IMG/VR virus record: IMGVR_UViG_3300042567_001758
Location: 1 to 27,592 of that record
Direction: 5' to 3' (one strand)
Source: a virus
Length of the DNA: 27,592 nt
The notes under the pieces are model-generated. The model was not told the DNA's origin, ran no database searches, and was given only the letters and a program-made list of their open reading frames with translations. Positions 9,975 through 16,693 of the stretch are shown piece by piece (position 1 is the stretch's first letter; each line of letters begins with the position of its first letter). A program made the position numbers and the translations under genes.

Positions 9975-9994
9975 TAAACTAACAAGGAGAAAGA

Positions 9995-11155
9995 ATGAAT
10001 TCATTTAAGAAGATCGCTCTTGCCGTGGTTGCAGCCATGACATTGGGCACAATGGTAGCAACACCTGCAAGTGCTGCTGTAATGACAGTGGCTGTAGATC
10101 TTGCTGGAACGCCTAATACAACGGCTTCTGCAATTGCTACACCTGCATCATTGCCAGTACCTGCAGACAACTCAGTTGACGCTGCAGATGCACTAAAGTT
10201 CGTCGCAACAGTTGACACAGGAACAGCGGTTTCTGTAGTAGCAACAAACGCAACAATCGTGTCTGCACTACACACATCTGCTGCACCAGTAGGAGCAACG
10301 TCAGGAACATCGTCTTTGACAATTGCAACTGGTACAGGAACAACCGCAACATTTTGGGTATATACAAAGACTACTGCAATTGGTACAGTAACTGTTACCA
10401 ACCAGGGAACTACTTTTACATACTACGTACAAGGAACTGCTGGCAAGATTAATAACCTAGCAGTCTCTGCTCCAACATCAGGTGCTGCAGGAACAAAGCA
10501 GGATATCTTGGTTACAGCAACAGACGTATTTGGAAACAAGGTTTCTGCTAAGTCAATTACTGCAACAGTATTTGCTGCAACAGCAACACTTGATTCAGCA
10601 ACAGCAACAACTGGTGCTACACTTTCAGATTTTGGAGTTGCAAAGTTTACAGCAACACTTCCAGCAACTGGAACACGCTCACTTATTATGTTTGCTCCAA
10701 CAACATCATCTGATGCAAACGCTGCAGATGTAGTTGGTCTAACTGCTCGTACACTAGCACCATTTGCAGAAGTTACAGTTCGTGATCTAGTATCAGAACT
10801 TGCTTCTGAAAAGGCTGCTAAGGATGCTGCACTTGCTGCTAAAGCAATTTCAGATGCTGCAGTCGTAAAGGCTGCTGCTGATGCTGCTGCTGCAAAGGTT
10901 GCCTCAGATGCTGCTCTAGCAGCAGAGAAGGCTGCATCTGCTGCTGCACTTGCTGCAGAGAAGGCTGCTTCTGCTAAGGCACTTGCTGATGCTAAGACTG
11001 CTTCAGATGCAGTTGTCCTTGCTAAGGATGCAACAATCGCTAAGTTAACAGCAGATAACGCTGCTGCACTTAAGTCAATCAAGGATGCTTTCAATGCACT
11101 TGCAAAGAAGTGGAATGCAAAGAATCCAAAGGCTAAGGTTACTTACGTTAAGTAA
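9995..11155 (+). CDS. secreted Ala-rich hendecad-repeat protein
   Basis: A 386 aa protein with a clear Sec signal peptide (MNSFKKIALAVVAAMTLG..., likely cut after TPASAA, about residue 28). The middle, about 30-260, is Thr/Ala/Val-rich and beta-like with an Ig-type stretch (ILVTATDVFGNKVSAKSITATV), and about 270-379 is an alanine-rich helix with an 11-residue period. No enzymatic motif or membrane anchor is seen. GC content is visibly higher than in its neighbours. It has AAGGAGA 4 nt upstream and an intrinsic terminator just after, so it is its own unit. It could be a cell-surface modifier, for example blocking a receptor, or a virion fibre; the signal peptide favours export from the infected cell. 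Function is inference. Confidence 0.8.
   Translation: MNSFKKIALAVVAAMTLGTMVATPASAAVMTVAVDLAGTPNTTASAIATPASLPVPADNSVDAADALKFVATVDTGTAVSVVATNATIVSALHTSAAPVGATSGTSSLTIATGTGTTATFWVYTKTTAIGTVTVTNQGTTFTYYVQGTAGKINNLAVSAPTSGAAGTKQDILVTATDVFGNKVSAKSITATVFAATATLDSATATTGATLSDFGVAKFTATLPATGTRSLIMFAPTTSSDANAADVVGLTARTLAPFAEVTVRDLVSELASEKAAKDAALAAKAISDAAVVKAAADAAAAKVASDAALAAEKAASAAALAAEKAASAKALADAKTASDAVVLAKDATIAKLTADNAAALKSIKDAFNALAKKWNAKNPKAKVTYVK
10802..11131 (+). repeat. hendecad (11-residue, 33-bp) repeat coding for a coiled-coil-like helix
   Basis: Ten successive 11-residue units can be laid out, the best being ASDAALAAEKA, ASAAALAAEKA, ASAKALADAKT and ASDAVVLAKDA. An 11-residue period fits a right-handed coiled coil or a long amphipathic helix, not the 7-residue heptad. 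The two central units are near-identical at the DNA level, suggesting recent duplication. Confidence 0.75.
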
Positions 11156-14002: not shown

Positions 14003-14527
14003 ATGACCTGTATTGCTGTAGTTCGCCATGAAGATAAAGTTTACATGGCTGGAGATCGTGGAGCATCAGATGATGGTACTATTCTAGCACTTGAAGCACC
14101 AAAGGTTTGGAAGGTAGGCCCTTATCTTATTGGGTATGCAGGTGCAATGGACGGAGAAAGAATCCGTTATAACTTTAAGCCATCTGCTCCCAATATTAAA
14201 GACACAGATAGATTTATGCAGACAAGGTTTGTTAAAGAATTAAAAGAATTTTATAATGAGTTTTGGGTAGATACATCTAAAGATGGAGACCTTGGATTAA
14301 TCATCTGTGTTCGTGGACAAATTTATGAACATAGTTCTGCAGACATGTCTTTATCTAAATATACACTGCCATATTTAGCCATGGGCTCTGGAGCAGAGTA
14401 TGCCTATGGTGTTTTATATGCAACAGATAAGCAAAAAAATGCAAGGAATAGAGTTATTCAAGCAGTAAATGCTGCAATTAAATTTAATCCATCATGTATG
14501 GGCCCAGTTGACGTAGTAAGCCTTTAG
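14003..14527 (+). CDS. proteasome/HslV-like Ntn hydrolase
   Basis: A 174 aa protein of the 20S-proteasome beta/HslV fold. After removal of Met1 the N-terminal residue is Thr1; counting from it, Asp17 (MAGDRGAS) and Lys33 (EAPKVWKV) fall exactly on the catalytic positions, and GSG at 127-129 (AMGSGAEYAYG) matches the conserved Ser-Gly loop. HslV is of similar size (about 175 aa). It would act as an ATP-independent or host-unfoldase-linked peptidase in the cytoplasm; substrate and oligomeric state are unknown. It has its own TTGACA/TATACT promoter and a strong GGGAGGGG ribosome site. No unfoldase gene (hslU, mpa) is in the window. Cleavage of phage or host proteins, for example during lysis timing, is speculation. 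Confidence 0.8.
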   Translation: MTCIAVVRHEDKVYMAGDRGASDDGTILALEAPKVWKVGPYLIGYAGAMDGERIRYNFKPSAPNIKDTDRFMQTRFVKELKEFYNEFWVDTSKDGDLGLIICVRGQIYEHSSADMSLSKYTLPYLAMGSGAEYAYGVLYATDKQKNARNRVIQAVNAAIKFNPSCMGPVDVVSL

Positions 14528-15576: not shown

Positions 15577-15649
15577 TGGTCTGTAACTCAGTTGGTAGAG
15601 TGCCGAACTGTTAATTCGGAAGTCGCAGGATCGTAGCCTGCCAGACCAG
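15577..15649 (+). tRNA. tRNA-Asn (anticodon GUU)
   Basis: Cloverleaf of 73 nt: acceptor TGGTCTG/CAGACCA, D-arm ACTC...GAGT, anticodon stem CCGAA/TTCGG with loop CTGTTAA (anticodon 15610-15612), T-stem GCAGG/CCTGC, discriminator G. CCA is not encoded. The T-loop reads ATCGTAG instead of TTCRANY, replacing the T54-A58 pair with A54-T58. Confidence 0.93.
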
Positions 15650-15654
15650 CAAAA

Positions 15655-15725
15655 GCGAGTGTTGCATAATGGTAGTGCTTCTGCCTTCCAAGCAGATGGT
15701 GCCAGTTCAATTCTGGTCACTCGCT
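15655..15725 (+). tRNA. tRNA-Gly (anticodon UCC)
   Basis: Cloverleaf of 71 nt: acceptor GCGAGTG/CACTCGC, D-arm GCAT...GTGC, anticodon stem TCTGC/GCAGA with loop CTTCCAA (anticodon 15687-15689), T-stem GCCAG/CTGGT with canonical loop TTCAATT. Discriminator T is followed by genomic CCA (15726-15728). Confidence 0.95.
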
Positions 15726-15729
15726 CCAA

Positions 15730-15801
15730 GGCCCTATCTTCTAGTGGTTAGGATACCAGGCTTTCATCTTGGTGAGCAGAGTTCAATTCTCTGTAGGGCT
15801 A
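15730..15801 (+). tRNA. tRNA-Glu (anticodon UUC)
   Basis: Cloverleaf of 72 nt: acceptor GGCCCTA/TAGGGCT with a G-U first pair, D-loop TAGTGGTTAG, anticodon stem CCAGG/CTTGG with loop CTTTCAT (anticodon 15763-15765), T-stem CAGAG/CTCTG with loop TTCAATT, discriminator A. CCA is not encoded. Confidence 0.93.
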
Positions 15802-15810
15802 CTAAAAGTT

Positions 15811-15819
15811 TGATATAAT
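15811..15819 (+). promoter_or_regulatory. extended -10 promoter for hsp20
   Basis: TGATATAAT lies 10 nt after tRNA-Glu. Transcription should begin near 15826, exactly at the first leader hairpin, giving a leader of about 51 nt. The -35 region is weak. Confidence 0.75.
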
Positions 15820-15825
15820 ATATAA

Positions 15826-15876
15826 GTACCTGCCGATTGGGGGTACATTAACTTATTCGCTTGAAAGGGGAATAAA
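15826..15876 (+). promoter_or_regulatory. ROSE-like RNA thermometer candidate in the hsp20 leader
   Basis: Two hairpins fill the leader. The first (15826-15846) pairs GTACC with GGTAC. The second (15853-15875) pairs TTATTC with GAATAA, then has a G59-G69 mismatch and CTT pairing with AAG/G around a GAA triloop, so the ribosome site AAGGGG (15865-15870) is fully buried and the hairpin ends one base before ATG. The strand facing the ribosome site reads UCGCU, matching the U(U/C)GCU signature of ROSE elements, which control small heat-shock genes by melting at higher temperature. Structure was drawn by eye. Confidence 0.65.
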
Positions 15877-16293
15877 ATGGTAGTAACAAATGCAATGGAT
15901 CTATTTAATGATCCTTTTTTTATTGGCTTCAACAGAGAGTTAAGCCGTTTGAATACAGCACATAAAACAAACTCGCAGTCCTACCCACCGTATGATCTTC
16001 TTAAACTAGACGAAGATACATATCAGATCTCACTGGCAATTGCTGGTTTTTCAAAAGGTGATATTGATGTTTCAGTAGATAATGGAACACTAATTATCAA
16101 GGGTGAGATTGTAGAAGTAACAGATGCAGAGGTAGTCCACAAGGGTATCGCAGGAAGAAAGTTCGTAAGATCTTTTGCACTGGGAGAATACATGGAAGTA
16201 ACTTCCGCAGAACTAAAGGACGGTATGCTACATATTCATGTAGTACGCATTGTCCCAGAAGACAAAAAGCCAAAATCTATTAAAATCAAGTAG
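15877..16293 (+). CDS. Hsp20/alpha-crystallin small heat-shock protein (IbpA-like)
   Basis: ATP-independent holdase chaperone of 138 aa that binds unfolding proteins in the cytoplasm. N-terminal arm 1-35 (MDLFNDPFFIGFNRELSRL), then an alpha-crystallin domain: YPPYDLLKLDEDTYQISLAIAGF, SKGDIDVSVDNGTLIIKGEI, GIAGRKFVRSFALGEYMEVTSAEL and the DGMLHIHVVRIVP strand, close to the IbpA pattern. The C-terminus has KSIKIK, an I-x-I-like motif. It is preceded by its own promoter and a thermometer-like leader. ATG 15877 is favoured by AAAGGGG 6 nt upstream; ATG 15895 is a weaker alternative. Hsp20 genes are known in other phages, where a role in virion assembly or stress has been suggested. Confidence 0.92.
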   Translation: MVVTNAMDLFNDPFFIGFNRELSRLNTAHKTNSQSYPPYDLLKLDEDTYQISLAIAGFSKGDIDVSVDNGTLIIKGEIVEVTDAEVVHKGIAGRKFVRSFALGEYMEVTSAELKDGMLHIHVVRIVPEDKKPKSIKIK

Positions 16294-16307
16294 TACAATA
16301 TAAAAGT

Positions 16308-16389
16308 CCCTACACAGGACCTTAGTGATGGATTAGTTACCCATTGGATAGAGACCGTGGCGCAAGTCAGGTGAATTGCCTGTGTAGGG
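16308..16389 (+). ncRNA. structured RNA candidate of unknown class
   Basis: CCCTACACAGG (16308-16318) and CCTGTGTAGGG (16379-16389) form a perfect 11-bp stem enclosing 60 nt. Inside are ACCT/AGGT (16319-16322/16369-16372), a hairpin (T)GATGG/CCATT(G) around 16326-16346, and TGGC-GCAA-GTCA with a GNRA loop (16358-16369; it shares one base with the ACCT/AGGT pairing). The layout resembles a multi-branch junction such as a riboswitch or ribozyme. No T-run follows. It lies between hsp20 and the HNH gene, upstream of the HNH promoter. It could not be assigned to a known class. Confidence 0.55.
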
Positions 16390-16404
16390 CTTAATATTTA
16401 GCGG

Positions 16405-16410: not shown

Positions 16411-16417
16411 AATGTTA

Positions 16418-16693
16418 ATGACTGGCAAAGAGTTAGCATATTATAATAAGCAAGAGTTAAAAAGACTACTTGCAAATATAAAAGAAAAATCTGGCTGTGT
16501 TGACTGTGGAATTAATAATCACATACTTCTAGATTTTGATCACATAAGAGATAAAAAATATAATATATCAAGAATGATTCATGATGGATTTTCTTGGAAG
16601 GCTATTAAAAAAGAGATTGAAAAATGTGAAGTAGTCTGTGCTAATTGTCATAGAATAAGGACACATCGTAGATTGACATCAAAAGCCTCATAA
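16418..16693 (+). CDS. HNH endonuclease
   Basis: A 91 aa free-standing HNH nuclease. Zinc ligands C27-x2-C30 and C74-x2-C77 flank the ββα-metal core, with D41-H42 (DFDHIRD) as the first HNH histidine and H78 (CANCHRIRTHRR) as the last. It would make a metal-dependent nick or double-strand break. Start at 16418 follows TATAAT by 7 nt; an ATG at 16412 is alternative. The gene is isolated among unrelated genes, as expected for a mobile homing-type nuclease, although terminase-linked HNH proteins also aid packaging. Its 3' end contains the -35 box of the endolysin promoter. Confidence 0.85.
   Translation: MTGKELAYYNKQELKRLLANIKEKSGCVDCGINNHILLDFDHIRDKKYNISRMIHDGFSWKAIKKEIEKCEVVCANCHRIRTHRRLTSKAS

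Follow-up and report, generated by a model that had tools for sequence, protein, structure and literature searches.

The window (the whole stretch of DNA that was analysed, an IMG/VR virus record of 27,592 bases) carries genes for a DNA polymerase III alpha subunit, a RecA-like protein, a CHAP protein and a WhiB-family protein. Together, these genes suggest a tailed phage that infects an actinobacterium, the host being indicated by the WhiB-family gene, and the virus group to which the window belongs would infect freshwater actinobacteria. Three tRNA genes are followed, in this order, by an extended -10 promoter box, two RNA hairpins and the gene of a small heat-shock protein (Table 1). An earlier note, made from the letters of the window, had called this gene hsp20, in agreement with the Pfam match listed in the table. 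In a protein alignment, Arg94 of the window Hsp20 falls in the same column as Arg93 of E. coli IbpA. Elsewhere in the window, 14003-14527 encodes a protein that matches the proteasome / N-terminal nucleophile hydrolase family weakly (PF00227, E 4e-5), here in a phage. At 9979-11155, two open reading frames rich in Ala, Thr and Val overlap on opposite strands, of which the plus-strand frame (386 amino acids, with a signal-like N-terminus) is probably the real gene.

Table 1. Features at and around the hsp20 leader of the window
Feature	Position	Strand	Basis or remark
Three tRNA genes (Asn, Gly, Glu)	15577-15802		upstream of the hsp20 promoter box
Extended -10 promoter box TGA-TATAAT of the hsp20 transcript	15811-15819	+	predicted from sequence
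Hairpin 1, GUACCUGCCGAUUGGGGGUAC, with bulged G15832	15826-15846	+	MFE and centroid structures; 6 nt behind the extended -10 box
Hairpin 2, UUAUUCGCUUGAAAGGGGAAUAA, with G-G mismatch 15859 x 15869; sequesters the Shine-Dalgarno sequence	15853-15875	+	MFE and centroid structures
UCGCU, the U(U/C)GCU motif of ROSE elements	15857-15861	+	sequence; faces GGGGA
Shine-Dalgarno (SD) sequence GAAAGGGG	15863-15870	+	complementary to the 16S 3' end
hsp20, small heat-shock protein of 138 amino acids	15877-16293	+	PF00011, E 1e-17
Structured RNA candidate, about 93 nt	16304-16396	+	just downstream of hsp20

Hairpin 2 is built from the pairs U-A, U-A, A-U, U-A, U-A and C-G, the mismatch between G15859 and G15869, the pairs C-G, U-G and U-A, and a GAA triloop. 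A single nucleotide (A15876) separates its last base, 15875, from the ATG at 15877-15879. The earlier note had described this hairpin correctly to the base, and the UCGCU that it reported opposite the SD, as the U(U/C)GCU signature of ROSE elements, is present. The G15859-G15869 mismatch and the U-G pair are the non-canonical positions in the SD helix. ROSE elements are defined by two to four hairpins, the last of which holds the SD (PMC11182007); the window leader has two hairpins, with the SD inside the second.

The extended -10 box is conserved at the same place among 134 distinct relatives, with TATAAT in 132 and the TGn extension in 129, and a near-consensus -35 box (at least 5 of 6 matches, at a spacing of 17-18 bp) is additionally found in 50 distinct relatives of the window. 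The hsp20 transcript is predicted to start at hairpin 1, which is where the earlier note had placed its own predicted start. The only Rfam match near the leader is to the preQ1-II riboswitch (RF01054; 19.1 bits, E 0.3). We rejected this metabolite-sensing alternative, to which we assign next to no probability: the score lies far below the cut-off of 47, the gene is hsp20, and the match sets in before the -10 box and therefore outside the predicted transcript.

Hairpin 2 has a predicted folding energy of -6.1 kcal/mol at 37 C (z -5.06), and none of 200 shuffled sequences is as stable; hairpins 1 and 2 together reach -15.8 (z -3.38, 0 of 200 shuffles). The fold of the 101-nt context around the leader is not unusual (z -1.0), and is uninformative because promoter and coding sequence are included in it. 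An alternative register of hairpin 2 with a bulged G, hinted at by the model alignment, was discarded, as its predicted stability at 25 C falls short of that of the G-G register by about 9 kcal/mol. A chance origin of the hairpins is excluded by the shuffles together with the conservation and the independent covariance model described below.

The conservation and motif counts rest on leaders that were found by way of the protein. Among the 80 closest viral relatives of the window, identified by protein alone, one has no upstream sequence, and in 78 of the remaining 79 the 23 nt of hairpin 2 are identical, the sole exception (L061) being a two-base variant. A search with the exact 23-mer gives 120 contigs, each of which has hairpin 2 before the hsp20 start; as they were chosen by the leader itself, they were left out of the independent evidence for conservation. 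The SD helix is too invariant inside the window's group for compensatory change to be judged, so that covariation within the group rests on hairpin 1. The sequence of hairpin 1 is free to vary while its shape is kept: a stem in which a pyrimidine precedes a bulged G is present in 113 of 114 distinct versions, and base-pair swaps occur at every outer position beyond the first (114 distinct leaders of the group, in a model-fitted alignment). Two sister viruses inside the group, found through a different marker (L500 and L501), have the canonical CUCGCU-GAAA-AGGAG hairpin with a bulged G, and in L061 and L511 a bulged G lies inside the long AU stem typical of the window. These bulged-G hairpins in sister viruses indicate that the G-G mismatch of the window is a variant of the bulged-G ROSE hairpin.

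A common plan, comprising a bulged-G hairpin, then CU(C/U)GCUU opposite AAGGAG, and then the start codon, recurs in the hsp20 leaders of phages of Prochlorococcus, Synechococcus, Pelagibacter, Methylophilales, Agrobacterium, Sinorhizobium and others. Of the 268 phage hsp20 leaders found by protein, 253 have the motif UYGCU 8-45 nt upstream of the start (169 of 178 when only distinct leaders are counted), against an expectation of 5.1% from dinucleotide shuffles and an occurrence of 12 in 416 at other SD-bearing open reading frames of related contigs. Most of the exceptions, ACGCUUAACGGAGGU of the L372 type and CUGUCU...AGGAGG of the L306 type, still fold with an unpaired G. The leader is common to most of the sampled phage hsp20 genes and is no curiosity of a single phage.

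A covariance model (R1), whose training set comprised 41 leaders from other phages and none from the window's group, ranks the hsp20 leader first in the 27.6-kb window (29.6 bits, E 5.6e-5; next match 0.28). R1 recovers the leader in 100 of 100 sampled members of the window's group and matches 19 of 22 named phages, six of the 19 having been in the training set. When nine named phages were scanned over their whole genomes, eight gave any match, and in all eight the hsp20 leader came out on top, with E values of at least 0.23 elsewhere. In the R1-fitted alignment of 83 matches, 81.8% of the cells pair, versus 68.9% in shuffles, and pair counts of this kind lean towards the structure of the model, which was drawn by hand on a MAFFT alignment. 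Cells with double changes number 154, versus 55.5 in shuffles (0 of 500), and controls in which the partners were slid by 1-3 columns yield 33-83. The covariation is concentrated in hairpin 1, where seven of the eight pairs have double changes in other phages. Hairpin 2 is constrained by the SD, and a flank-swap test was therefore used there: the 5' and 3' halves of the same leader fold better with each other than in chimeras between leaders (106 of 20,000 permutations for phages, 0 of 20,000 for bacteria and 0 of 20,000 for all). The compensatory change that the earlier note had proposed to look for in homologues is thus seen, both as double changes in hairpin 1 and in the flank-swap of hairpin 2 across phages and bacteria.

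Like the known ROSE families (ROSE_3, RF02523; ROSE_2, RF01832, of E. coli ibpA; and ROSE, RF00435), which have 2 to 4 hairpins, the window leader stands on a small heat-shock protein (sHsp) gene, and U(U/C)GCU is the partner of the SD in its last hairpin, with a non-canonical G in the helix. The core of E. coli ibpA, UCUCGCU...AGGAG, is also the core of most of the phage leaders. Unlike those families, the window leader is phage-borne, with an actinobacterium as its indicated host; a G-G mismatch replaces the bulged G, the stem is extended and AU-rich, the SD is stronger, and the score lies below the Rfam cut-offs. The window leader has no match to any Rfam ROSE model, and a direct Rfam assignment was therefore dropped. 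ROSE_3 aligns over its full length, and in the right place, with the leaders of four named phages (Melnitz, 34.1 bits; Atu_ph07, 28.0; C48C1, 26.8; Syn1, 21.6), all of them below the cut-off of 43, which is a curation threshold and no biological definition; on a marine gammaproteobacterial leader the same model scores 33.5 bits. As a positive control, E. coli ibpA scores 100 bits with ROSE_2. R1 matches E. coli ibpA weakly (12 bits, E 0.32), yet this is its sole match in 14 kb. The ROSE-like identity of the window leader is well supported by the motif, the bulged or mismatched G, the two-hairpin layout, the hsp20 gene, the covariation and the recognition by R1, as well as by the occurrence of the same leader at bacterial sHsp genes and by the canonical bulged-G versions in sister viruses. 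This part of the earlier note's ROSE-like thermometer stands, whereas the novelty that it claimed for thermometers in phages does not (see below).

ROSE elements have been described as tied to bacterial sHsp genes, and the family is known from alpha- and gamma-proteobacteria, plus one ROSE-like case in Anabaena (PMC4166951). The sHsp genes of SAR11, SAR86, PS1 and OCS116, bacterial relatives of the phage proteins, have the same leader as the window, with both hairpins, and are detected by the phage model, which recovers the leader at 59 of 80 bacterial sHsp loci. In Planktophila and other acI actinobacteria, UCUCGCUAAC...AAAGGAGA lies directly before the sHsp start, and the start codon of the acI/Nanopelagicales sHsp genes at L450, L456, L460, L464, L468 and L476 is accompanied by a ROSE-like hairpin, UCUCGC...AAGGAG; in the literature searched, we found no report of ROSE-like elements in Actinobacteria. 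The Planktophila leader is unlike that of the window in that its upstream hairpin is different, R1 misses it, and its Hsp20 clade is not sister to that of the window. The hsp17 thermometer of Synechocystis, like the window leader a short leader of an sHsp gene, controls translation by temperature (PMC4166951). It consists of a single short hairpin, whereas cyanophage hsp20 leaders have two hairpins with UYGCU, like the leader of the window.

We consider it likely, from predicted folding and comparison, that the hsp20 leader of the window is a two-hairpin ROSE-like RNA thermometer. Transcription would start at hairpin 1, which is stable, has a bulged G and probably aids folding or shields the 5' end. 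Hairpin 2 would pair the SD with UUCGCUU around the non-canonical G-G mismatch and, in the cold, keep the 30S subunit from the SD. Upon warming, hairpin 2 would loosen stepwise and the strong SD would capture the ribosome, such that Hsp20 would be made once proteins begin to unfold, without a new transcription factor.

In predicted folding of the window leader, the SD is kept closed at low temperature; an AAGGGG left open in the cold, which the earlier note had named as evidence against a thermometer, did not occur. Nearest-neighbour folding leaves hairpin 2 mostly closed up to 50 C, well above lake temperatures, so that simple melting offers no explanation of induction and ribosome capture must help. 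Any heat response must arise from competition with the ribosome, and this is the weakest point of the thermometer reading. With the proven ROSE thermometer of E. coli ibpA as benchmark, the predicted cost of opening the SD of the window is 10.2 kcal/mol at 10 C, 8.3 at 25 C, 7.6 at 30 C and 5.6 at 42 C, as compared with 6.2, 5.5, 5.1 and 4.2 kcal/mol for ibpA at the same temperatures. The predicted duplex between SD and anti-SD is -14.3 to -14.4 kcal/mol at 25 C for the window, versus -7.9 for ibpA, assuming the generally known 16S tails (an actinobacterial one for the window). The stronger lock would thus be matched by a stronger pull.

The gradual opening predicted for hairpin 2, and the resemblance of hairpin 1 at the 5' end to protective 5' stems, would also fit hairpins that merely stabilise the mRNA or set a fixed low rate of translation, without temperature sensing. 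We regard this explanation as improbable, because a mere stabiliser gives no reason for a UYGCU that is conserved across from the SD, accompanied by a bulged or mismatched G, and tied to sHsp genes in phages and bacteria alike.

The main rival to the thermometer assigns the sensing to the protein. Self-repression, for which Arg93 is indispensable, is known from E. coli IbpA, a protein that binds its own 5' UTR (PMC10474464). By analogy, the leader may be mainly an operator for the sHsp, in which free Hsp20 would bind the hairpins and repress its own translation until drawn onto unfolded proteins, with temperature acting through the protein and not the RNA; such control is compatible with thermosensing, as in ibpA. 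The IbpA Arg93 column holds Arg in 18 of 20 leader-positive proteins (the window and 19 named phages) and Lys in the other two (C48C1 and Paride), and neither residue in the leader-negative proteins of PWH3a-P1, VpB-34 and Wolbachia WO. In addition, the near-identity of hairpin 2 exceeds what pairing alone requires. However, the leader-negative proteins are distant (PWH3a-P1 and VpB-34 sit on a long branch), so that the correlation between this column and the leader may be one of ancestry, and a thermometer needs no more than an SD sequestered around a labile G mismatch. We therefore hold a mainly protein-operated leader to be possible rather than likely; the Arg or Lys could reflect chaperone feedback on the leader, or shared ancestry only.

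A tree of 74 Hsp20 proteins has 11 changes of label between phage and bacteria, at least five of them forced by well-supported branches, with the proviso that some of the 'bacterial' contigs (Bacteroidetes bins) may be phage. These changes suggest that the gene and its leader have moved several times between phages and bacteria. Pelagiphage Hsp20 groups with that of Pelagibacteraceae bearing the same leader. The acI clade is not the sister of the window clade; as the tree does not put the latter beside Nanopelagicales Hsp20, a recent acquisition from the actinobacterial host was rejected. We tentatively raise the idea, with some doubt of our own, that phage Hsp20 makes up, together with its ROSE-like leader, a mobile and self-contained cassette for the heat response, in which the RNA would sense temperature and the chaperone would feed back on the hairpins via an IbpA-type arginine. 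Such a cassette would have moved repeatedly between phages and bacteria, and the phages of cyanobacteria, SAR11 and freshwater actinobacteria would constitute a very large reservoir of ROSE-like thermometers.

RNA thermometers of phages are already known, contrary to the earlier note, which was aware of none: temperature-dependent access to the SD has been described for lambda cIII, SPbeta blyA and a sigma70 gene of gut Caudoviricetes (PMC11182007, PMC4166951). Unlike the window leader, lambda cIII is a two-conformation switch closed by heat, and the blyA and sigma70 elements are fourU types; none of the three is ROSE-like and none stands on hsp20. In the literature searched, mostly freely available papers, we found no ROSE-like element or hsp20 thermometer in a phage. 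Within that literature, what is new is the ROSE-like leader on phage hsp20 and its unexpectedly broad distribution among phages, ROSE elements and phage thermometers being known as kinds.

Aquatic phages commonly carry small heat-shock genes, cyanophages in particular, whose sHsps have been described (PMC3827213, PMC5028025). As the same leader precedes hsp20 in most of the tailed phages sampled, temperature-controlled production of a chaperone may be common in phages. If the leader is heat-responsive, phages would keep the temperature control along with the chaperone and tune the latter during infection, the warming of lakes and oceans would be linked directly to infection, and ROSE-like thermometers would extend from bacteria to many phages. 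Leader sequences are on hand in the named phages P-SSM2, P-SSM4, Syn1, HTVC008M and Paride.

The structured RNA just downstream of hsp20 is closed by an 11-bp stem, CCCUACACAGG/CCUGUGUAGGG, and compensatory changes occur in relatives at 6 of its 17 predicted pairs. Its inner parts, GGACCUUAG-GAUGG--UAGUUACC and CCGUGGC, are strongly conserved, and a TATAAT/TACAATATAA-like box of its own lies just upstream. The RNA has no match in Rfam. IMG/VR stretches that contain it number at least 120, and in some of them no hsp20 leader lies nearby; it is probably an undescribed non-coding RNA of phages. Right after it, a small open reading frame (16412-16693) contains, as judged by eye, the Cys/His pattern CVDCG...DFDHI...CANCH, which resembles that of HNH endonucleases.
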